DNA from: Roseibium polysiphoniae
GTDB taxonomy: Bacteria > Pseudomonadota > Alphaproteobacteria > Rhizobiales > Stappiaceae
Direction of reading: 5' to 3'
DNA length: 64,000 bases
Assembly (NCBI RefSeq): GCF_014842925.1
Contig: NZ_JACYXJ010000005.1
Location: forward strand, 372,001 to 436,000
This document shows, one piece after another, positions 9,068 through 22,199 of the stretch (position 1 is the stretch's first letter; each line of letters starts with the position of its first letter). The notes beneath the pieces were generated by a model, which saw nothing but the letters and a program-made list of their open reading frames with translations, was not told where the DNA came from and ran no database searches. A program made the translations under genes and the position numbers.

Positions 9068-9976
9068 TCAGCCAGTTTCGACGCCCAGCTTGCGGCAAAG
9101 CTCATCAAGCTGCTCAAGCGAGGTGTATTTGATCTTCAGATCGCCACTTTCCTTGCCCGGCTTGTGACCAACACTGACTTTCAGTCCAAGCGTATCCGCC
9201 AGCCGCTTCTCCAACGCCTTGGTATCGGCATCCTTTTCCGGCTTGGCCACTTCGCTCTTGCCGCCGCTAAGGAGCTTTTGCAGCGCCTCTGGATCCTGCG
9301 CCAGTTTCTCGGCGTCACGAACGGTCAGACCCTTGGCAACAATAAGGTCCGCGAGCGCAGCCGGGTCTTCCACGGTGATCAGCGCACGGGCATGACCAGC
9401 GGTCAAAAGTCCTTCAGCCAGATAGTCCTTCACCGAATTCGGCAACTTCAGCAACCGCATGGTGTTGGCGACATGGCTTCGGCTCTTGCCGATGACCTTG
9501 GCCAATTCACCCTGGCTGTAGTTGAACTCGGCGGTCAGCTGATCATAGCCCATCGCTTCTTCGATCGGGTTCAGGTCTGCGCGCTGAACATTCTCGATGA
9601 TCGCGAGCTCAAGCGCTTCCTGATCGGTGACATCGCGAATGATGATCGGCGCTTCGTGGAGACCGGCCTTTTGTGCGGCACGCCAGCGACGCTCACCTGC
9701 GATGATCTCGAAACGATCCTGTTTTCCTGCGGCCGGGCGAACGAGGATAGGCTGGACAATCCCTTTTGCACGCAGAGATTCAGTGAGGTCCGCCAGATCC
9801 TTCTCAGCAAAGGTCTTGCGCGGATTACGTGGGTTCGGCTCCAAATGCTCAATCGGAACCTTGCGGCTGTCGCGCATCGTTCGCTCAGGGGGAGATGTAT
9901 CCTGAGTAGCAGAATCGCCAATCAGCGCCGCCAGGCCACGTCCCAAGCGCTTGTTCTTGCCACTATCGTCCGCCAT
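9068..9976 (-). CDS. parB: Chromosome partitioning protein ParB
   Basis: 302-residue CTPase/DNA clamp that loads at parS, spreads, and stimulates ParA. Domains: basic N-terminal ParA-activating motif (KNKRLGRGLAALIG, residues 7-20), ParB/Srx CTP-binding domain with GIVQPILVR, GERRWRAAQ and IENVQRADLNPIEEA, and the helix-turn-helix (YSQGELAKVIGKSRSHVANTMRLLKLP) that reads parS. The C-terminal leucine-rich dimerisation segment ends the protein. It lies 127 bases downstream of parA with an AT-rich gap just before its start, which may hold a second promoter. Five parS-like sites lie 1.5-8 kb away. Confidence 0.98.
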   Translation of the reverse strand: MADDSGKNKRLGRGLAALIGDSATQDTSPPERTMRDSRKVPIEHLEPNPRNPRKTFAEKDLADLTESLRAKGIVQPILVRPAAGKQDRFEIIAGERRWRAAQKAGLHEAPIIIRDVTDQEALELAIIENVQRADLNPIEEAMGYDQLTAEFNYSQGELAKVIGKSRSHVANTMRLLKLPNSVKDYLAEGLLTAGHARALITVEDPAALADLIVAKGLTVRDAEKLAQDPEALQKLLSGGKSEVAKPEKDADTKALEKRLADTLGLKVSVGHKPGKESGDLKIKYTSLEQLDELCRKLGVETG

Positions 9977-10103: not shown

Positions 10104-10928
10104 CTAGGCCGCAACGCGCCGAAGCTCACGCTCACGCTGAATGATCTCAGATGCAAGGCGCAGGTAAGCCTGACTGCCGGAGCATTTCAGATCATAGAGC
10201 AACGCAGGCTTTCCGTAGGACGGCGCTTCCGAGATCCGCACGTTGCGCGGAATGATGGTTTCATAAACCGCATCACCCATCGTCTCGCGCACATCGGCCA
10301 CGACCTGGCTGGAGAGATTGTTCCGGCTGTCATACATCGTCAGAACGATGCCATGGATCGTCAGTTCCGGATTCAATGCGTTACGCACCTGCTCCACTGT
10401 GCTCAGCAGCTGGCTGAGACCTTCCAGCGCAAAGAACTCACATTGCAGCGGAACCAGGATCGAATGGGATGCCGAGAGCGCGTTGATGGTGAGCAGGTTC
10501 AGAGACGGCGGGCAGTCGACCAGGACATAGGTAAAACCGATTTCCTGAAACAGCCGGGATTGGGCCAATTGCTCGATGGCTGCGCGCAGACGGAAAGCCC
10601 GGTCACCGGTCGAGGCAATTTCCAATTCGAGCCCCAGCAGATCCATCGTCGATGGAGCCACCCAGAGTCGAGGAACCGCAGTATCCTTGACCGCCTCTTC
10701 CAGGCGGCAGTCGCCGCTGAGAACGTCATAGGTGGACAACCCACGATCACGGCGTTCAATACCGAGACCAGTGGAAGCGTTGCCCTGTGGGTCGAGGTCG
10801 ATAACAAGAACCTTTTCACCAATGGCAGCAAGGGCTGTCCCGAGATTGATGGCTGTCGTCGTTTTACCGACACCACCCTTCTGATTGGCAAGCGCAAGAA
10901 CGCGCGGGGATTCTGGAAGCATGCTCAT
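10104..10928 (-). CDS. parA: Chromosome partitioning ATPase ParA
   Basis: 274-residue deviant-Walker ATPase that forms the nucleoid gradient along which ParB-parS complexes move. The deviant Walker A motif KGGVGKTT is at residues 17-24, with LVIDLDPQGNASTGLG next and Walker B VLVDCPPSLNLLTINAL. The C-terminal DNA-binding patch region RNVRISEAPSYGKPALLYD is typical of chromosomal ParA. The start overlaps the rsmG stop by four bases (ATGA), so it is translated from the mnmG-rsmG-parA message. Confidence 0.98.
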   Translation of the reverse strand: MSMLPESPRVLALANQKGGVGKTTTAINLGTALAAIGEKVLVIDLDPQGNASTGLGIERRDRGLSTYDVLSGDCRLEEAVKDTAVPRLWVAPSTMDLLGLELEIASTGDRAFRLRAAIEQLAQSRLFQEIGFTYVLVDCPPSLNLLTINALSASHSILVPLQCEFFALEGLSQLLSTVEQVRNALNPELTIHGIVLTMYDSRNNLSSQVVADVRETMGDAVYETIIPRNVRISEAPSYGKPALLYDLKCSGSQAYLRLASEIIQRERELRRVAA

Positions 10929-11599
10929 ACAGCGATACCTTCCTTACTGGGCCGGGGAGAGATATTGGATAAAAGAAGCATCCGGCTCGTAGGATCTATA
11001 AGACTTACCTTTTCTACCAGATCGAATGTCCAAGCGTGAGACGCTTCGTTAACTTCTCGTTGGAAATCTTGGCCTTTGTGGAAAACACATTGCGCACCAG
11101 CGGCGGTAAACGGCTCAGCAAAACCCAAAAGCAAATCGAGTGCGGCCAAAGCTCGGCCGGAGACCGCATCAATGGCGCCATGCTGCCAATCTTTCGCAAC
11201 CGATTCGATCCGTCCTGCATGGACGGTGCCTTTGGACCCTGTCTCACGAAGGGCAGTTCTCAAAAAAGCTGCCTTGCGCTGATTGCTTTCAATCATGTGG
11301 ACATGGCCGTCTGGATCGTCGGCCTGCAGAATAGCCGTCACAACACCGGGAAACCCCGCCCCACTGCCAATGTCCACCCAGGTCTTTGCCTCGGGCAAGG
11401 TCCACTTGGTCTGCAGGCTATCGACAACATGGCGAGACCAGATATCCGGGATGGTCGACGGCGCAATCAGATTTTGCGCGGGCTGCCACTTCAGAACCAG
11501 ATCAACGTAGATCTGAAGGCGCTCGATCGTTTCACGTGAAACATCCCCGAAGTTATGCACAATCTCTGCAGAGTTGTTCAAAGGCACCGGACGAGCCAT
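10925..11599 (-). CDS. rsmG: 16S rRNA (guanine527-N7)-methyltransferase RsmG (GidB)
   Basis: SAM-dependent methyltransferase modifying G527 of 16S rRNA. About 224 residues. Motifs: LQIYVDLVLKWQPAQNLIAPST near the N-terminus, SAM-binding TWVDIGSGAGFPGVVTAI, and SGRALAALDLLLGFAEP. The ATG at 11599 overlaps the mnmG stop in TGATG; a GTG one codon upstream would also work. Its N-terminal D-V-S-R-E-T codons contain a parS site (11528-11543). Member of the mnmG-rsmG-parA-parB cluster. Confidence 0.96.
   Translation of the reverse strand: MARPVPLNNSAEIVHNFGDVSRETIERLQIYVDLVLKWQPAQNLIAPSTIPDIWSRHVVDSLQTKWTLPEAKTWVDIGSGAGFPGVVTAILQADDPDGHVHMIESNQRKAAFLRTALRETGSKGTVHAGRIESVAKDWQHGAIDAVSGRALAALDLLLGFAEPFTAAGAQCVFHKGQDFQREVNEASHAWTFDLVEKVSLIDPTSRMLLLSNISPRPSKEGIAV
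11528..11543. promoter_or_regulatory. parS-like site 1, inside rsmG
   Basis: CGTTTCACGTGAAACA matches the near-universal parS palindrome at 15 of 16 positions. It is the ParB loading site, here overlapping codons of the rsmG N-terminus, 1.55 kb from parB. Confidence 0.9.
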
Positions 11600-13479
11600 C
11601 ACGCCGCCCCCTTACGGCTTTGACGTTTGATATGAGACAGCAGCAGCGTGAGTGCCGCAGGCGTGACCCCATCCATCCGCGACGCCTGTCCGAGCGTGGA
11701 CGGACGCACAGTATCCAGTTTCTGCTTAACCTCGTTTGACAGACCGACCAATGCATTGAAGTCGAAACCAGCAGGAATCTCCAAGGCCTCATCCCGCTTC
11801 AAGGCTGCAATATCCGCAGCCTGGCGCTCAAGGTAGACGGCATAAAGCGCGTCTGTTGCCACCTGTTCGGCAATGGCCTCACCCACAGTCTCCAGCTCCG
11901 GCCAGACCTCGACCAGCTGCGAGAATGTCACATCCGGATAGGACAACAGATCAAAGGCAGATCGACGGATACCATCCTGATTGACTGGCAGTCCCTTTTT
12001 CTGCGCCTCCGCCGGCGTGACGGTAAGACCCTTAAGCAAGTCGCCGGCAGCAACAATCTGGCTCATCTTCGTTTCGAAAGCGACTCGACGTTGCTCACTG
12101 ATACAGCCCAGCTCAACCCCGATCGGCGTAAGACGCTGATCCGCATTGTCCGCCCGCAAGGACAGGCGGTATTCCGCCCGTGACGTGAACATGCGGTATG
12201 GCTCGGTGATCCCGCGAGTGACGAGGTCATCGATCATCACGCCAATATACCCCTGGCTTCGATCGACGACGAAGGCGTCGCGACCGGCAGCTTTCAAGGC
12301 TGCGTTCAGACCTGCGATCAGGCCCTGGGCTCCCGCCTCTTCATATCCAGTCGTCCCGTTGATCTGACCAGCCAGGAAAAGCCCGGAGCACTTCTTCGCC
12401 TCCAGCGTGGTCGAAAGTTCACGTGGGTCCACATGATCATATTCAATCGCATAGCCCGGCTGGATCACCACGACATTTTCAAGTCCAGGAATGGTCTTGA
12501 GAAACGCCAGCTGAGCATCTTCCGGCAGCGAGGTCGAAATGCCGTTCGGATAGACAGTGTGATCATCCAGGCCCTCAGGCTCCAGAAAAATCTGATGCCC
12601 GTCGCGATCACCAAACCGAACGATCTTGTCCTCGATCGATGGACAATATCGAGGACCCCGTCCCTTGATCTCGCCAGAGTACATCGCCGAGCGCGAGAGG
12701 TTTTCACGGATAATCTGATGGGTCTCAGGCGTCGTCCGTGTGATATGACAAGGGATCTGCGGCGCCTCGATCTTCTCCGTCAGCGTCGAAAACGGGATCG
12801 GGTCCGCATCACCCGGCTGCTCTTCGAGCTTCTGCCAATCAATCGTTCGACCATCGAGGCGTGCCGGCGTACCGGTCTTCAGACGGCCGAGCTCGAAACC
12901 GATCTCCTCGAGGGAGACGGACAGCCCCATCGCTGGTCCCTCTCCCTGCCGTCCGGCCGGTATCTTCTTGTCGCCGATGTGAATGAGGCCGCGCAGAAAG
13001 GTGCCGCTGGTCAGAACAACAGACTGGCAAACAATCTCCCGTCCATCTGCAAGGACGATCCCGGAGATCGCGCCATCATCAAATGTCAGCCGATCGGCTT
13101 CACCCTCGACGACATCAAGTTTGTCGATGGCGGCGATCTCCGCCTGCATGGCCTCGCGATAAAGCTTCCGGTCTGCCTGGGCACGAGGCCCGCGAACAGC
13201 TGGACCCTTCCGCCGGTTCAGCATTCTAAATTGGATGCCACCCTTGTCGGCGACCCTACCCATCAGGCCATCAAGTGCATCAATCTCTCGAACAAGATGG
13301 CCCTTGCCGAGCCCCCCTATCGCGGGATTGCAGGACATCACTCCGATGGTGTCGGCACGATGAGTGACAAGAGCTGTCCGCGCGCCAAGCCTTGCAGATG
13401 CCGCAGCAGCCTCGCAGCCCGCATGGCCGCCGCCAACCACCACCACATCATAGATCATATTTGTCATGGTCATATTCAT
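11599..13479 (-). CDS. mnmG: tRNA uridine 5-carboxymethylaminomethyl modification enzyme MnmG (GidA)
   Basis: FAD-dependent partner of MnmE that modifies U34 of tRNAs ending in a wobble purine. 626 residues, close to the usual length. The FAD-binding [10 protein letters not shown] motif follows the first beta strand ([10 protein letters not shown]). Other family blocks: [77 protein letters not shown] and [15 protein letters not shown]. In-frame ATGs at 13473, 13467 and 13458 are alternative starts; [11 protein letters not shown] at 13458 is closest to the family start. The gap to mnmE holds two parS sites. Confidence 0.97.
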
Positions 13480-13670
13480 TCATCGGTCGATGGCAAACCA
13501 TCGCACAAAGGGATCAAATCACCGTAGCGAGTTTCAAGGGAACCATCTGGTCTGTCAGCGCTCTTGGCGCGCACGGCAGAGGCTGAGCAATTTGCACAAG
13601 CACCCCTGGCCGGTTCCGTTGACGTCCTTATAAATTGACCTGGATTTTTGGTCAAAAGAAAACAGGAAGA

Positions 13671-13686
13671 TGATTCACGTGAAACA
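13671..13686. promoter_or_regulatory. parS-like site 2 (mnmG/mnmE gap)
   Basis: TGATTCACGTGAAACA, 15 of 16 to consensus. Together with an identical copy 52 bases away it makes a double parS in the noncoding gap between mnmE and mnmG. Confidence 0.9.
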
Positions 13687-13722
13687 TGTTCCGGGTCAGA
13701 ACCGATGCGCCAAACCCCTCAA

Positions 13723-13738
13723 TGATTCACGTGAAACA
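13723..13738. promoter_or_regulatory. parS-like site 3 (abutting the mnmE stop)
   Basis: TGATTCACGTGAAACA, identical to site 2, 15 of 16 to consensus. It ends four bases from the mnmE stop codon. Confidence 0.9.
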
Positions 13739-13742
13739 GGTC

Positions 13743-15092
13743 TCACTTCCCGATACAGAAATCCCGGAAGATAACATCCAGCAGATCCTCTACATCGATC
13801 CGACCCGTGATCCGGCCAAGAGCGTCAGCTGCAGAGCGAAGATCCTCTGCCCTGAGCTCGCCCGGCAGATCGTCCCGCGTAAAGCCATGATGCAACGCTG
13901 CACGGCAATCACGCAGGAAGTGGCGGTGTCTCGCGCGGGTCGCCAGCGGCGCTTCACCGACTGATATCATTTCACCAACGAAACCGGAAAGACGGTCAAT
14001 CAGCGCTTCGAGACCGTTCTTGTCCAGACACGATACAGGAATCTCAAGGGTTGTTCCGGAAGAGTCTCGTTCCGGAAGAGTCTCAAGATCAACCTTTGTC
14101 CGAACGATCCAGACCGGAACAGACTGACGAACGTCCGCGCTCAGGCCGGAGACCGAATGGTCCGGGGCCAGCCCACCGGGCTCCATCGCCCACAGGATGA
14201 GATCGGCTGCCTCTCCACGTGCCTGGGCCCTGCGGATCCCCTCCTGCTCGACACGCCCCTCCGTTTCGCGAAGCCCGGCCGTATCAACCAGCGTCACTGG
14301 ATAACCGCCAAGGTCCAGATGAACCTCAATCGCGTCGCGCGTCGTTCCAGCCTCCTCTGTGACAATGGCGACATCGCGGCCCGCAATGGCGTTCAGCAAG
14401 CTTGATTTGCCTGCGTTGGGCGCCCCCATCAAAACAACCTGCAAGCCGGATCGTAGCCGCTCACCGCTCTTCGATTGCTCCAGATGTTGATCGACTTCTC
14501 CGATCAAGCCTTCTGCCTGATCCCAAACCTGATCCGCGACGCTGCCTGGAACATCTTCCTCATCGGCGAAATCGAAGTCTGCCTCGATCATGGCGCGCAT
14601 ATGGATCAGTCGTTTGCGCCAGTCTTCGTAGAGCCGGCCAAGGCCACCACCCATCTGACGAAAGGCCTGCTTGCGTTGCGCCTCGGTCTCAGCAGCAATC
14701 AGGTCCGACAGGCCTTCCACCTCCGTCAGATCCATCCGCCCCCGGTCAAAAGCACGCCGGGTAAATTCACCAGCCTCGGCCGGACGCAGCCCCTCAAACT
14801 CTGAAAGCACATCAAGAATGCGCGCGACAACTGCCCGGCCGCCATGGCATTGCAGCTCTGCAACGTCCTCGCCTGTAAAGCTCGCCGGCCCCTTGAAGTA
14901 GAGGACCAGCGCCTCATCAAGCACATCTCCGGAAACAGGATCGACCAGGCGCTTCAAGGCGGCCTTGCGCGGCTCGGGCACCACCCCACATAGACGGTTC
15001 AGGACCAACTCAACAGCCGGGCCAGACATCCGGATGACCGCGACACCTGCAGGCAGGGCTCCACTCGATAGCGCATAGATCGTATCTGACAT
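13743..15092 (-). CDS. mnmE: tRNA modification GTPase MnmE (TrmE)
   Basis: Potassium-activated GTPase working with MnmG on wobble uridine. 449 residues from the preferred ATG at 15092 (MSDTIYALSSG); the frame is open six codons upstream to 15110. The N-terminal folate-binding domain has GVAVIRMSGP. The inserted G domain has P-loop GAPNAGKSSLLNAI, G2 TTRD, G3 DTAGLRE and a G4 reading RTKVD, where NKxD is usual. The C-terminal CIGK tetrapeptide, which carries the modification-essential Cys, is intact. Clustered with its partner mnmG. Confidence 0.97.
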   Translation of the reverse strand: MSDTIYALSSGALPAGVAVIRMSGPAVELVLNRLCGVVPEPRKAALKRLVDPVSGDVLDEALVLYFKGPASFTGEDVAELQCHGGRAVVARILDVLSEFEGLRPAEAGEFTRRAFDRGRMDLTEVEGLSDLIAAETEAQRKQAFRQMGGGLGRLYEDWRKRLIHMRAMIEADFDFADEEDVPGSVADQVWDQAEGLIGEVDQHLEQSKSGERLRSGLQVVLMGAPNAGKSSLLNAIAGRDVAIVTEEAGTTRDAIEVHLDLGGYPVTLVDTAGLRETEGRVEQEGIRRAQARGEAADLILWAMEPGGLAPDHSVSGLSADVRQSVPVWIVRTKVDLETLPERDSSGTTLEIPVSCLDKNGLEALIDRLSGFVGEMISVGEAPLATRARHRHFLRDCRAALHHGFTRDDLPGELRAEDLRSAADALGRITGRIDVEDLLDVIFRDFCIGK

Positions 15093-15206
15093 CACTCTCA
15101 CATCATTCATTCAAGCAGGTCATCGTGCCCCGCTTGCACTCGCCGGCGAATTGCTGAACCTTAGCCATCCAGCGACCCGCAAATCCCGTTAGGACCGCAA
15201 CTCCCC

Positions 15207-17222
15207 ATGACCGAAAACCGCCTTGCCCAATCAACCAGTCCGTATCTGCTCCAGCACAAGGACAACCCGGTTCACTGGTACCAATGGGGCGAAGAAGCGC
15301 TTGCAGCGGCCAAGAGCCAAAACAAGCCGATCCTCCTGTCGGTAGGCTATGCAGCCTGTCATTGGTGCCACGTCATGGCTCATGAAAGCTTCGAGGATCC
15401 AGCGACTGCGGAGGTAATGAACCGCCTCTTCATCAATATCAAGGTCGATCGCGAGGAACGTCCCGATATTGATCAGATCTATATGAAGGCACTTCACGCC
15501 CTTGGCGAACAGGGTGGCTGGCCGCTGACCATGTTCCTGACGCCAGAGGGTGAACCCTTCTGGGGCGGAACCTATTATCCCAAGACCGCACAGTGGGGCC
15601 GTCCCTCATTCGTCGATACGCTCGAAGCTGTCGCGAACACCTTCGAGACGGATCGGGAGCGAATCGAAAACAACCGAAGCGGTCTGATGCAAGCCCTGAA
15701 GGCAGAGATCACACCCACTGCCCCGATCGATCGCAGTCTCATGATGGCTGCGGGTGACCGTCTTGTCGGCCTGTTCGACACCGAGCATGGCGGGATCAAG
15801 GGCGCGCCGAAATTCCCGCAAGCGTCCGTGCTCGATCTCGTATGGCGCATCGGGCTGCGCGGTGGCAACGATACCGCCAAGGACGCCTACCTTCATACGC
15901 TAAGACAGATCAGCAATGGCGGGATATATGACCATCTCAAAGGCGGGATCGCCCGCTATTCGGTCGACCACCTTTGGCTTGTCCCCCATTTCGAAAAGAT
16001 GCTCTACGACAACGGCCAGTACCTCGGGCATCTCGTCAATGCCTATCAGGCGACCGGCGATGAGCTGTTTCGACGCCGAATCGAAGAGACTGCCGATTGG
16101 CTGCTGAGTGAGATGAAGCTGCCCGGCGGAGCATTTGCCTCCAGCCTGGACGCGGACAGCGAAGGCGAAGAAGGCCGATTTTACGTCTGGTCGTCGGATG
16201 AGATAACCGAGGTGCTCGGCGAGGAAGATGCCCTGGCTTTCGCCAAGGCCTACGACGTTCATCCCTCCGGCAACTGGGAAGGCATTACGATCCTCAACCG
16301 GCTGAAGTCTCCGAGCGTTTCTGCCAAGGAAGAAACACGGCTGGCCAAGATGCGTGAGAAACTTCTGAAACGCCGTGAAAGCCGCATTCGACCGTCAATG
16401 GACGACAAGGTCCTTGCCGACTGGAATGGCTACACCATCACAGGCTTTGCCCGTGCCAGCCATTTTGTTTCACGTGAATCATATCTGGAGGCAGCGCGCA
16501 CAGCCTATGACTTCGTCATGAGCGAAATGAGCCGCGACGGCCGCATCGGCCATTCCTGGCGTGATGGAACGCTGGTCTTCCCGGGCTTTGCCACAGATCA
16601 GGCAAGCATGATGGTCGCAGCCCTCGCCCTTGCCGAAGCCGATCCAGACCGGATCGAGCGCTACATAGCGGACGCCGAGAACCTGGCAACCGTCCTTGAA
16701 CAGCACTATCAGAGCGAAGAAGGCGCCTATTTCCTCACAGCAGATGACGCGCCGGGCCTGATCACCCGCCCATTCAGCGTTGCGGATGAAGCCACACCCA
16801 ACGCCAATGGAACAGCGGCAGAAGCTTTTTCGAGGCTCTATCTGATGACTGGCAAGGAGCGATACAAAACACTGGCGGACAAACTGCTGATGGCTCTGTC
16901 GGCAGAGATACCGAAGAACATCTTCGCGACCGCCTCTCTCCTTTCGGCCTTTGATACGCGAACCAACGGACGGTTGGCTGTGATCGTTGCGCCGGAAGGA
17001 ACGGATCCGAATCCATTTCTCAAGGTTCTGAACCGCGCGGTTGATCCCGCCTTGATGCAAATCCTTGTCAGCTCGACCGATGATTTTCCAGAAGGTCACC
17101 CTGCGAAATACAAGAACGCGCTGGATGATAAGCCGACCGTCTATCTCTGCCGCGAGGGAGCATGTTCGTTCCCGATCCAAAGCCGTCGAGACCTTGAAAC
17201 AATCTTGCAGAAAGTCGACTAG
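15207..17222 (+). CDS. DUF255/YyaL-family thioredoxin-fold protein
   Basis: 671-residue cytoplasmic protein of the YyaL/SSP411 (DUF255) family, whose biochemical role is unsettled. The N-terminal thioredoxin-like domain (residues about 1-165) has the family signature [17 protein letters not shown] and a C51-H-W-C54 active-site-like motif, plus [15 protein letters not shown] and [23 protein letters not shown]. The remainder looks like an alpha/alpha six-barrel related to glycoside epimerases ([35 protein letters not shown]). It runs against the general direction of its neighbours. A parS-like site lies inside its coding sequence. Its stop shares CTAG with the stop of the convergent GNAT gene. 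Confidence 0.93.
16466..16481. promoter_or_regulatory. parS-like site 4, inside the DUF255 gene
   Basis: TGTTTCACGTGAATCA, 15 of 16 to consensus. It overlaps codons read as V-S-R-E in the DUF255 protein. Location about 6.5 kb from parB. Confidence 0.85.
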
Positions 17223-17791
17223 CCGCCCGTCTGCGCGACCCAGTCCTTCCGGCCCAGGCGATAGAGCACGTGGGGCTCCAGCGGGTGACCTTGCTCGACA
17301 GCTGGATGAAGAAAGTCGTCAGCTGGATCGTAGGTCATCCCAAGTCGCTTCATCACCCGACGCGAAGGAGCATTGATGACGGTGGTGAAGGAGACGATTT
17401 CCTCCAGGTCCAAAGTTACGAAACCGAATCGAAGCCAGGCCCTTGCCGCCTCTGTTGCATAGCCCTTGCCCCAGGCGCTGCGCGCAAGCCGCCAGCCAAC
17501 CTCAACGCAAGGATCGCATGGCAGAGGCTTGGCGTAGGACGGCCGGGACAATCCGACAAAACCGAGAAAATCCCCCGTTGCCTTTTCTTCGATCGGGGCA
17601 AAGCAGAACCCGTCGGACTTTTCCTTTGCCAGGGCCTTGTCCATCAGCGCATCGCTCAACTCGCGTGACAGGGGTGCCGGGAAGTAACGCATGACCTCAG
17701 GGTCAGCATTGATGCTCGCGAAGACATCCCGGTCGGTTTCCCTGAAGGAGCGCAAGATCAGGCGCTCAGTCTCCATTATCATCTCTGGCAT
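17219..17791 (-). CDS. GNAT-family (RimJ/RimL-like) N-acetyltransferase
   Basis: 190-residue acetyl-CoA-dependent acetyltransferase of the RimJ/RimL type. It opens with [22 protein letters not shown], has GFVGLSRP in the central sheet, and the acetyl-CoA pyrophosphate-binding segment [21 protein letters not shown], followed by [19 protein letters not shown]. The substrate cannot be told from sequence. ATGs at 17782 and 17776 are alternative starts. Convergent with the DUF255 gene; the stops overlap. Confidence 0.88.
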
Positions 17792-17830
17792 TTTTCGTCC
17801 CGCATCCGATTCAACTGACTCAACGGCAAT

Positions 17831-17846
17831 GGATTCACGTGAAACA
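17831..17846. promoter_or_regulatory. parS-like site 5 (GNAT/rho gap)
   Basis: GGATTCACGTGAAACA, 14 of 16 to consensus, in the noncoding gap between the GNAT gene start and the rho terminator. The weakest of the five, but the central 13 bases ATTCACGTGAAAC match sites 2 and 3. Confidence 0.75.
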
Positions 17847-19893: not shown

Positions 19894-20922
19894 CTACCCC
19901 CGCTTAACCCGCTCGACCATCCGCGCAACGTTTTCCGGATCGGCATCCGGCGTCACACCATGGCCAAGGTTGAAAACGAGCGGACCCTTGTCGAATGTCT
20001 TCAAGATGTGATCAACGCCTTCATCCAGCGCAGATCCCCCTGCGACAAGGCGCATTGGATCGAGATTGCCCTGGATCGGAACTTTCTTCTGGATCTCGAG
20101 AGCCAGGCTGTCGGGTGCGGTCCAGTCAAGTCCAACCGCATCAACGCCTGTCTTCGCGATGTAAGTTTCCATACGCGCTGCGGATGACTTCGGGAAGCCA
20201 ATGATCTTCGCATCCGGCCTTTGAGCTTTCACGCCCTGGACAATAGCCCGGGTCGGTTCGATTGACCAACGCTCAAACCCCGCATCGTCCAAGACACCTG
20301 CCCAGGTATCGAAGATCTGAACCGCATCAGCACCGGCATCAAGCTGACGAACGAGGTAGCGGATCGAAGCGGTAACAAGGTGGTCGATGAAGCGGGCGAG
20401 AAGATCCGGGTCCCGATAGGATCCCACACGGGCTGCGACCTGGTCCTGGGTTGTGTGTCCGGCGACAGAATAGCACGCAACGGTCCAGGGAGCGCCACAG
20501 AAGCCAAGAAGCGTCGTTTCCTTGGGCAGCTCAGCTCGAAGACGCGAAACCGTCTCTATGACCGGTTTAAGATGATCCTCTGCTCGTTCCTGTTCCAGAC
20601 GATCAACCAGATCGTTGCATAGAGGTTCAAGAACTGGACCACGTCCTTCTTCAAACCTTACCGGATAGCCGATCGCGTCCGGCACGACGAAGATGTCCGA
20701 GAACAAGATGCTCGCATCAAAGCCATACCGGCGGATCGGTTGAAGAGTGACTTCGGTGGCCAGATCCGGATTGTAGCAAAAGTCTAGGAAGTTTGGCGCC
20801 TTGGCGCGAACCTTACGATATTCGGGAAGATAACGGCCTGCCTGACGCATCATCCAGATGGGGGGTGGCCAGATTTTCTCTCCTGCCAACACACGCATCA
20901 CGCTACGATCTTCGGATCTCAT
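19894..20922 (-). CDS. hemE: Uroporphyrinogen decarboxylase
   Basis: Cytoplasmic enzyme converting uroporphyrinogen III to coproporphyrinogen III. 342 residues from ATG 20922. Signature PPIWMMRQAGRYLPEYR near the N-terminus, FSDIFVVPDAIGYPVRFEEG, FCGAPWTVACYSVAG, and GADAVQIFDTWAGVL are all present, as is NLGHGVTPDADPENV at the C-terminus. I prefer the ATG at 20922 because AAAGGGG stands nine bases upstream; a GTG at 20943 would start inside that ribosome binding site. It borders the candidate replication origin, as hemE does in Caulobacter. Operon with hemJ. Confidence 0.97.
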   Translation of the reverse strand: MRSEDRSVMRVLAGEKIWPPPIWMMRQAGRYLPEYRKVRAKAPNFLDFCYNPDLATEVTLQPIRRYGFDASILFSDIFVVPDAIGYPVRFEEGRGPVLEPLCNDLVDRLEQERAEDHLKPVIETVSRLRAELPKETTLLGFCGAPWTVACYSVAGHTTQDQVAARVGSYRDPDLLARFIDHLVTASIRYLVRQLDAGADAVQIFDTWAGVLDDAGFERWSIEPTRAIVQGVKAQRPDAKIIGFPKSSAARMETYIAKTGVDAVGLDWTAPDSLALEIQKKVPIQGNLDPMRLVAGGSALDEGVDHILKTFDKGPLVFNLGHGVTPDADPENVARMVERVKRG

Positions 20923-21138
20923 AAGGCGGAGCCCCTTTCCCACAATCCTGTCTAATAAAGATTCTATATTTGAATCTGTTTTTTATTATTGAGAGTGGAT
21001 TACCGGGATCATTTGGCTTCCACAATCATTCACAGTCATATTCGACACGGGATAAATCGTCGCGTGTTCTGGACAAGTTACCCTCCACAGGAGTCGATAA
21101 CTCGGAATTTCGTTTCTATTAAGTGATTTAGAAGAATT

Positions 21139-21153
21139 TTAACACTCTATTAA
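21139..21153. promoter_or_regulatory. CtrA binding box
   Basis: TTAACACTCTATTAA fits the full CtrA consensus TTAA-N7-TTAA exactly. Inside the hemE/PPSR gap, where CtrA silences initiation in Caulobacter. Binding is inferred, not shown. Confidence 0.6.
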
Positions 21154-21202
21154 TGAATTGGGCAGACGTGGAAAACCTGTCCATGATTTGCGGCGACTGT
21201 GT

Positions 21203-21211
21203 TAATCCACA
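21203..21211 (+). promoter_or_regulatory. DnaA-box-like sequence
   Basis: TAATCCACA differs from TTATCCACA at one base. A weaker reverse-strand candidate (TTTTCCACG, two differences) lies at 21167-21175. Confidence 0.45.
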
Positions 21212-21350
21212 TGGTCAGCAGACCGTTTCGCCGGGAGTCATTTGAAAACCATGTGCTGTTTATAAAAACAGGTCAGCGGGCACAAATTCGGGCCGGAACC
21301 GGACAAAGAGCCAATTTTCCCGGCTATTCAACAGGGGTGGGGATGACTGC

Positions 21351-22199
21351 GTGAACAAGTCCAGAAACTACTTTCATCTCCATCTGGTATCGGACTCGAC
21401 GGGCGAAACCCTGATGACGGTCGCCCGCGCCGCGACGGTCCAGTATGAAGACGTTCAGGAGATCGAGCACGTCTATCCTCTCGTCCGAACTCAAAAACAG
21501 CTGGATCGCGTTGTCAGCGAGATCCAGGCGGCACCCGGCATTGTTCTCTATACCCTGGTGGACAAGGATATATCGGCAAGGCTTGAGCGAACCTGTCGTG
21601 AGCTCGGAATTCCCTTCGTCAATATTCTCGATCCGGTCTTTGCGGTCTTTCAGTCCTACTTGAACGTGACCCAAACCCACCGGATCGGCGGTCAGCACGA
21701 GCTGGACGCGGAATATTTCAAGCGTATAGACGCGCTCAATTACACCATGATGCATGATGACGGTCAGATCTGGGAGGATCTCGAGGCCGCCGATATCGTG
21801 CTCGTGGGGATCTCACGCACTTCGAAGACGCCGACCTGCATCTATCTGGCGAACCGGGGCATCAAGGCCGCGAATGTGCCTCTGGTGCCGGACATTCCAT
21901 TGCCTCCACAGCTTCTGGAACTGAAAAAGCCGCTGGTCGTTGGACTAATTGCATCGGCCGAACGCATTCAGCAGATCCGGCGCAACCGGGTTCTGTCCTT
22001 GCAGTCGGAAAACTATAACGACACATATGTCGATCGGAAGGAAATCGCGCGGGAAATCAATCTGACCAGGCGCTTATGTTCCGACAATGAGTGGCCGCTC
22101 ATAGATGTCACGCGCCGATCGATTGAAGAAACCGCGGCTGAAATCATGGCGCTGTATCGAGCGGCCAAAACAAAACAGGTTGACGATCAGGAGGTGTGA
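21351..22199 (+). CDS. Bifunctional kinase/pyrophosphorylase regulating PEP synthase or PPDK (PPSR/PDRP family)
   Basis: 282-residue DUF299-family protein that inactivates its target (PEP synthetase or pyruvate phosphate dikinase) by ADP-dependent phosphorylation and restores it by phosphorolysis. Family signs: [20 protein letters not shown] at the N-terminus, the P-loop-like [18 protein letters not shown], and [13 protein letters not shown]. The start is GTG, with AGGGGTGGGG about ten bases upstream. First gene to the right of the candidate origin, heading a rightward operon with maf, aroE, coaE and dnaQ. Which dikinase it controls cannot be seen here. Confidence 0.92.

Follow-up and report, generated by a model that had tools for sequence, protein, structure and literature searches.

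A conserved CtrA-type box in the very probable chromosomal origin of Roseibium polysiphoniae, between hemE and a PPSR-type gene

The 428-bp gap between hemE and a gene for a PPSR-type regulator (COG1806) in Roseibium polysiphoniae is very probably the chromosomal origin of replication, and near its middle it carries a CtrA-type box that is conserved, in register and with a fixed spacer, through most of the family. The gap lies in a window of 64,000 nucleotides, the whole stretch of DNA analysed here, which is positions 372001-436000 of contig 8 of a source genome of 4.58 Mb in 12 contigs; coordinates are those of the window unless a contig or locus is named, and the features are collected in Table 1. 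The same genome encodes two full-length DnaA proteins, the second of which is characteristic of the genus.

Results

GC skew turns at the hemE/PPSR gap

At a resolution of about 1 kb at best, the cumulative GC skew of the source genome has its minimum at window position 20334, some 0.6 kb from the gap (378 kb of contig 8). In the same 378 kb the skew drops for about 200 kb before this point and climbs afterwards, with a flat stretch at about 80-150 kb. Around dnaA, on contig 10, the cumulative skew falls over 60 kb and no turn was seen. A closed chromosome of the same genus (G043; 6,395,015 bases) turns from negative to positive skew near 310-330 kb and back to negative between 3.4 and 3.9 Mb, as judged from 20 sampled 20-kb stretches. 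Its fine minimum, at 331,688, falls within the PPSR gene (331427-332269), beside the same hemE/PPSR pair, and its dnaA, at base 1, is 332 kb from the turn, with negative skew on both sides. An origin at dnaA was rejected for this lack of a skew turn in both genomes. The original prediction had placed the origin beside hemE, and it is supported by the skew minimum at the gap and by the same gene pair at the turn of the closed chromosome; dnaA, where a minimum would have counted against the prediction, is on another contig without a turn.

Table 1. Coordinates of the origin, its motifs and the genes discussed
Feature	Position	Strand	Basis
Predicted chromosomal origin, hemE/PPSR intergenic gap, 428 bp	20923..21350	.	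skew turn, gap length, DnaA-core enrichment
hemE, uroporphyrinogen decarboxylase, left boundary gene	19894..20922	-	TIGR01464 385.5 bits, cut-off 302.95
PPSR-type regulator, right boundary gene	21351..22199	+	NF003742 345.4 bits, cut-off 225
Inverted GANTC pair AGATTC-N7-GAATCT, by T-rich stretch	20959..20977	.	sequence
GANTC sites (CcrM-type)	20960, 20972, 21091..21095, 21235..21239	.	sequence
DnaA-like box TAATCCACT at 20994-21002, then A-centred trinucleotides	block 20994..21013	-	about 1.4-1.6 bits per 12-bp block
DnaA-like core TCCACA	21019..21024	+	sequence
DnaA-like core TCCACA	21084..21089	+	sequence
CtrA-type box TTAACACTCTATTAA	21139..21153	.	sequence, conservation, spacer specificity
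Weak DnaA-like box TTTTCCACG	21167..21175	-	13 bp right of CtrA-type box
DnaA near-box TAATCCACA	21203..21211	+	1 mismatch to E. coli DnaA box
parB	9068..9976	-	TIGR00180 194.1 bits, cut-off 58.45
parA	10104..10928	-	adjoins parB; ParA/MinD-type families, the 25 listed all below cut-offs
Five parS-like 16-mers	11528, 13671, 13723, 16466, 17831 (span 11528..17846)	.	1-2 mismatches to TGTTTCACGTGAAACA
Full-length DnaA genes	L003:1066-2517 (G000:C9:170681-172129); L002:1039-2520 (G000:C10)
Source-genome CtrA	G000:C7:263785-264456		83% identity to Caulobacter query

Boundary genes and surroundings

Both boundary genes score above the curated cut-offs of their families, which gives the gap the boundary pair of a Cori-type origin, hemE plus COG1806/DUF299; we take PPSR to be the same as DUF299/COG1806, and NF003742 to be equivalent to COG1806. 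The PPSR protein shares 77-87% identity with its homologues in Roseibium/Labrenzia, which places the organism in Roseibium or next to it. With a GC content of 44% against 58% across the window, the gap is as AT-rich as had been claimed. Its length is nearly constant, at 424-433 bp in the Roseibium/Pannonibacter-type loci L004-L027 (the exception, L021, has 420 bp) and at 420-444 bp across 66 gaps of the family. When 80 PPSR loci were compared for the gene pair, 24, all among L044-L083 and from Bradyrhizobium-type and related records, had no hemE match beside PPSR; 20 of these cover at least 3.6 kb upstream of PPSR and four less than 1 kb. Since PPSR has no neighbouring hemE there, the Cori gene pair is broken in these lineages.

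A flip of gene direction at the gap had also been described. Near the gap it is present, with hemE, a hemJ-like gene and rho running leftward on the left and PPSR, maf, aroE, coaE and a dnaQ-like gene running rightward on the right, but it fades with distance, as the left side has one long rightward ORF (15207-17222) and the right side is mixed beyond about 25 kb. Gene names given without a family search come from the translations and are presumptive. The parABS system proposed to be adjacent exists in its parts, parA, parB and five parS-like sites, but it is 3-12 kb off and not immediately adjacent. All five 16-mers, which resemble what we take to be the parS consensus, lie to the left of the origin, in and around genes that are presumably rsmG, mnmG and mnmE and those towards rho.

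Weak DnaA boxes and a candidate unwinding side

The core TCCAC occurs five times in the gap against 0.91 expected (P = 0.003), and the longer T.WTCCAC three times against 0.15, with 101 occurrences against 10.4 over the 66 gaps. The near-consensus DnaA box of the original prediction was found as TAATCCACA at 21203, one of six near-boxes at one mismatch in the whole window. The gap holds no perfect E. coli DnaA box (TTATCCACA), and the DnaA boxes that it shares with Cori-type origins are weak ones only. A scan with the strict pattern WATCAANNNNTTR, presumably the IHF consensus, found no match within the gap.

One of the two most conserved blocks in the family alignment is GTGGATTACCGGGATCATT (20995-21013). 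On the minus strand this block reads as a DnaA-like box with A-centred triplets after it, the arrangement of the basal unwinding system (PMC8287927). A box with at least five NAN triplets was present in 36/44 gaps of the source genus (g1), 5/5 of g4, 1/1 of g5, 2/5 of g6 and none of g2 (0/2), g3 (0/3) and g7 (0/6). Being a permissive pattern that is found in 44 of the 66 gaps and is absent from g2, g3 and g7, this putative basal-unwinding motif is suggestive only. Further towards hemE, the inverted GANTC pair beside a T-rich stretch is a candidate for the unwinding side, and the right part of the pair ranks with the best-conserved 12-bp blocks in that alignment. Clustering of GANTC had been claimed for the gap: four sites are indeed present, and over the 66 family gaps the motif is enriched 2.3-fold (305 vs 133 expected), but in the single sequence four sites against 2.0 expected are within chance (P = 0.13, dinucleotide shuffles of the gap), and we have dropped clustering as evidence from the source sequence.

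A CtrA-type box conserved in register

The perfect CtrA box that had been reported is there: TTAACACTCTATTAA is the sole exact TTAA-N7-TTAA in 64,000 bases, and at least one such match in the gap has P = 0.013 by dinucleotide shuffles. The looser TTWW-N7-TTWW has two overlapping matches in the source gap (P = 0.084). We collected 85 genomes of the family and read 83 gaps, 66 for the alignment and 17 later, one genome (G057) having no PPSR match and another (G003) a broken one. The alignment spans seven genera, with 44 gaps from g1, and the Pseudovibrio-like g6 was excluded from its information measure.

In the 66-gap alignment, an in-register TTWA-N7-TTWA is found in 38/44 g1 gaps, five of them exact, and in 17/17 gaps of g2, g3, g4, g5 and g7, all exact; in each of the six g1 exceptions a single base at one end of the box is altered. 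An exact box, at positions 209-214, is also present in all six g7 gaps added later. In g6 none of the 16 gaps read has the box (0/5 in the alignment), and the 11 added ones have no TTWA-N7-TTWA anywhere. With g6 left out, mean information in the half-site columns is 1.78 bits, which ranks 3 among 413 placements; their excess over the spacer, 0.81 bit, ranks 6 among the 413. The conservation is specific to the spacer. TTWA-Nk-TTAA occurs at k = 7 in 63 of the 83 gaps, or 63/67 when g6 is set aside, and no other k between 0 and 24 is found in more than 10; for exact TTAA-Nk-TTAA the figures are 35/83 at k = 7 and at most 10 at any other spacing. The CtrA site of a Cori-type origin is thus represented here by one exact, conserved and spacer-specific copy. 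An exact box is present in 10 of 29 gaps from more distant loci, most of which carry record titles from Hyphomicrobiales, against 0.32 by shuffle. These ten are not independent, as five of them occupy the same position next to hemE (33) in records that appear related. In the same gaps the control AATT-N7-AATT has no match, and other spacers average 0.33. The box is dispensable, given that 6/44 in-register boxes of g1 are changed and all 16 g6 gaps have none.

A second CtrA-like box, some 109 bp further right than the central one, is present in 26/44 g1 gaps, 5/5 of g4 and 1/1 of g5, for example at gap position 329 in L265 and 323 in L182. At the equivalent place in the source gap (about 21245) it is absent.

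CtrA, associated regulators and boxes elsewhere

One ctrA gene is present in each of the 85 family genomes, g6 included, and the encoded proteins are 83-85% identical to Caulobacter CtrA, a query sequence that was entered by hand. The source genome also encodes GcrA, a protein with a RAMA domain, which we presume to be CcrM-type, and DUF1153, which we take to be SciP. In the 500 bp upstream of ctrA (L310) there is no TTWA-N7-TTWA box; the region has TTAACCAT, TTAA half-sites and five GANTC.

Over the whole genome, TTAA-N7-TTAA is not over-represented, with 33 sites against 47 for a reversed control pattern, and genome-wide enrichment was rejected as an argument. The sequence-based case for CtrA draws on the conserved box at the origin, with weaker help from the genes beside other boxes. 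The 33 boxes make 32 places, as two on contig C7, 43 bp apart, were treated as one, and 26 of the 32 are intergenic by our own ORF calls. Exact boxes are found in the 500 bp preceding fliF, flagellin, rod protein, gcrA, receiver-domain, sigma-70, FtsE-like, Tad-like and GGDEF genes, and transglycosylase and EAL proteins are also among the neighbours. The FtsE-like one is a cut fragment whose best model, FtsE, gives 206.5 bits, below the cut-off of 264.85. Several neighbours do not belong to the known CtrA targets (sugar transferase, FecR, zinc ribbon, PAS), and no family matched 5 of the 20 scanned; the Pfam scans covered 20 chosen from 42 neighbouring ORFs, and the first 400 residues of long ones. 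Conserved CtrA control of initiation, as originally suggested, thus stands only at the level of sequence, through the conserved and spacer-specific box, the CtrA gene and the boxes near cell-cycle and flagellar genes.

A second DnaA in the genus

The two full-length DnaA proteins of the source genome, of 493 and 483 aa, are 56% identical. Both exceed the cut-off of the DnaA equivalog TIGR00362, the 483-aa protein over its full length (417.9 bits vs 343.9). A second full-length DnaA was found in 41/45 g1 genomes and is absent from G029, G032, G040 and G071. One genome, G062, has a third full-length copy (L248; G062:C1:4909976-4911367) that is very divergent, with 45% identity and a very long branch. 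In 40 genomes of the six other genera, no second strong match appears among the matches listed; each has one DnaA match of about 178-206 bits, with further listed matches at about 40 bits or less, and the match in G017 is in a frame of only 323 aa. Among 297 genomes sampled from the order, two DnaA matches at E <= 1e-60 occur in 4/5 of g1 and 2/292 others. These two, G155 (family f33) and G297 (family f16), may represent independent duplications or split genes.

In a tree with 29 of the 45 g1 DnaA1 and 11 of the 40 outgroup rows (two duplicate dnaA1 rows removed), 40 of 41 DnaA2 rows form one branch (100/100) with a long stem, beside four DnaA1 rows of the genus; the 41st is the third copy of G062. 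The dnaA2 of G058 (L204), which did not pass a motif filter, is missing from the tree and included in the residue survey below. Because of long branches, 21 open forks and an unsettled bootstrap, the exact point of duplication is unsure. The neighbours of dnaA2 are common to 21/23 loci tested, and the same neighbourhood without a trace of dnaA (no match at E below 0.1) is found in the four g1 genomes that lack dnaA2 and in five genomes of the outgroup, with direct abutment in G012 and G040 only and 0.5-3 kb of other sequence in the rest. The simplest history is therefore a single gain followed by a few losses. A recent mobile origin of dnaA2 is made unlikely by the single branch, the shared neighbours and the equivalent neighbourhoods free of dnaA.

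With dN/dS at 0.02-0.084 in ten pairs, as compared with 0.011-0.03 in eight pairs of DnaA1, dnaA2 is, as judged by codon substitution, under purifying selection. Invariant in all 41 DnaA2 proteins are the Walker A lysine, the two aspartates of Walker B, the sensor I aspartate, the sensor II arginine and RDHTT..LHA; the Walker A threonine is kept in 40/41, an R399-like residue in 37/41 and arginine at the arginine-finger position in 35/41. The box VII arginine is present in 40/40 DnaA1 and 2/41 DnaA2, that of the source genome having glycine. We take this residue to be E. coli R281, and the motif roles and E. coli numbering are likewise our assumption. In 41/41 DnaA2 proteins, the residue after the conserved valine in the presumed initiator-specific helix is a proline. 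A link between dnaA2 and origin motifs was rejected for lack of covariation, as the four g1 genomes without dnaA2 have the CtrA-type box and similar DnaA cores.

Discussion

Taken together, the gap is likely an origin of the hemE-COG1806 type of Caulobacter and Rickettsia, in which DnaA would open the hemE side and the CtrA box probably silences initiation. Its location, its motif content and conservation and the genes for CtrA, a RAMA-domain protein and GcrA are observed features of the genome, and beside them we infer DnaA loading, CtrA binding and silencing at the gap. DnaA would load onto the cluster of weak boxes formed by the five TCCAC cores and open the AT-rich side adjoining hemE. CtrA could occupy the single TTAA-N7-TTAA box mid-gap, with the weak DnaA-like box of 21167 lying 13 bp away, and in cells with active CtrA it would probably keep the origin shut by steric exclusion of DnaA. 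For Caulobacter, steric exclusion of DnaA is described as the simplest mechanism of CtrA (PMC4468827).

The gap could be the origin and its box an element through which CtrA acts on transcription of hemE or PPSR and silences nothing. We regard this as unlikely. The box is some 200 bp away from either start (196 bp for the longest hemE ORF, 217 bp for the likely hemE ATG and 198 bp for PPSR), other boxes of the genome precede genes, and CtrA is chiefly a transcription factor. However, about 200 bp is far when most other boxes have an ORF start no more than about 135 bp away, and the position of the box is fixed mid-gap, at near-constant gap length and among DnaA-like cores. Less probable still is binding of the box not by CtrA but by a different regulator of the OmpR type that recognises a similar direct repeat. 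Most g1 sites do depart from the exact consensus (for example TTTACCTTTCGTTAA; 5/44 are exact), but TTTA is permitted by the looser published CtrA consensus TTWW-N7-TTWW (PMC1914354), and the exact site is found in 17/17 aligned gaps of five other genera. Finally, a true origin at some other place up to about 10 kb away, near the parABS/mnmG cluster, with the hemE gap serving only as a conserved divergent promoter region, would fit the coarse skew resolution and the parS-like sites and parAB 3-12 kb leftward, but it is highly improbable given the skew turns within about 0.6 kb of the hemE gap in two genomes, the DnaA cores and in-register conservation inside the gap, and the homologous Caulobacter gap, which is the experimental origin there (PMC1914354).

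The second DnaA invites a further reading, which we hold only tentatively and with some doubt: the hemE origin would work under two DnaAs and a CtrA site, with DnaA1 opening it and DnaA2, dating from the stem of the genus, acting as competitor, titrator or transcriptional DnaA. DnaA2 would have arisen once in that stem and stayed under strong purifying selection, apparently keeping the residues for ATP binding and DNA-box recognition without the box VII arginine, and residues around its presumed single-strand-binding helix appear changed. It might then bind the same boxes yet fail to build a functional opening filament, and so provide a second brake or timer. We found no published second dnaA for this genus in the open-access literature, as far as the accessible portions of those texts go. 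Two dnaA copies are reportedly mentioned in a paper on Waddlia. By one account, the vast majority of genomes have dnaA as a single copy (PMC3080875).

Should DnaA2 act at the origin, it would offer a test case for the splitting of DnaA roles between paralogs. Stappiaceae belong to the order Hyphomicrobiales, as do Sinorhizobium and Brucella. Our analysis finds a CtrA-type site at the probable origin of one family of this order, two of whose well-studied members, Sinorhizobium and Brucella, reportedly make no use of CtrA at theirs. As g6 has CtrA without the box and six g1 boxes are damaged, the family provides natural comparisons of gain and loss, and these bear on how direct CtrA control of initiation is lost. 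No description of a CtrA box in a Stappiaceae origin was found in the open-access literature, to the extent that its texts were accessible; in a study on Rhodobacteraceae, origins were identified by Ori-Finder, with Labrenzia and Pannonibacter strains as outgroups (PMC6699656).

The gap is very probably a further hemE-COG1806 origin, and such origins are already known from Caulobacter and Rickettsia. The expectation that this arrangement would extend outside Caulobacter holds here, but it is not new in kind: an earlier paper describes a hemE/COG1806 origin with CtrA sites in Rickettsia and predicts hemE-bounded origins with CtrA sites in Wolbachia (PMC1914354). Caulobacter crescentus Cori (404 bp) and the present gap have the same boundary genes, similar length, AT-richness relative to the genome, weak DnaA boxes and CtrA site(s) (PMC1914354, PMC4468827), although five CtrA sites are given for Caulobacter and one exact box is found here (PMC1914354). 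The present gap differs from Cori in that it showed no match to the strict IHF pattern, has a GANTC pair beside a T-rich stretch, and has DnaA cores of the form TAATCCAC. The motif TGATCCACA, which we take to be the Caulobacter G-box, occurs in L012, L013, L023 and L024. The origins of Rickettsia prowazekii and Wolbachia share the hemE boundary and internal CtrA sites with ours, and that of Rickettsia also COG1806, whereas both are far more AT-rich and the other boundary in Wolbachia is COG1253; some related species have few or no CtrA sites (PMC1914354). Within the order, the origin of Sinorhizobium meliloti differs in having no CtrA motifs and in not being bound (PMC4433202). For Brucella abortus, CtrA is reported to leave the origin unbound, in contrast to what the box would predict here, but to bind the rpoD and ftsE promoters (PMC2877005), whose counterparts carry boxes in R. 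polysiphoniae.
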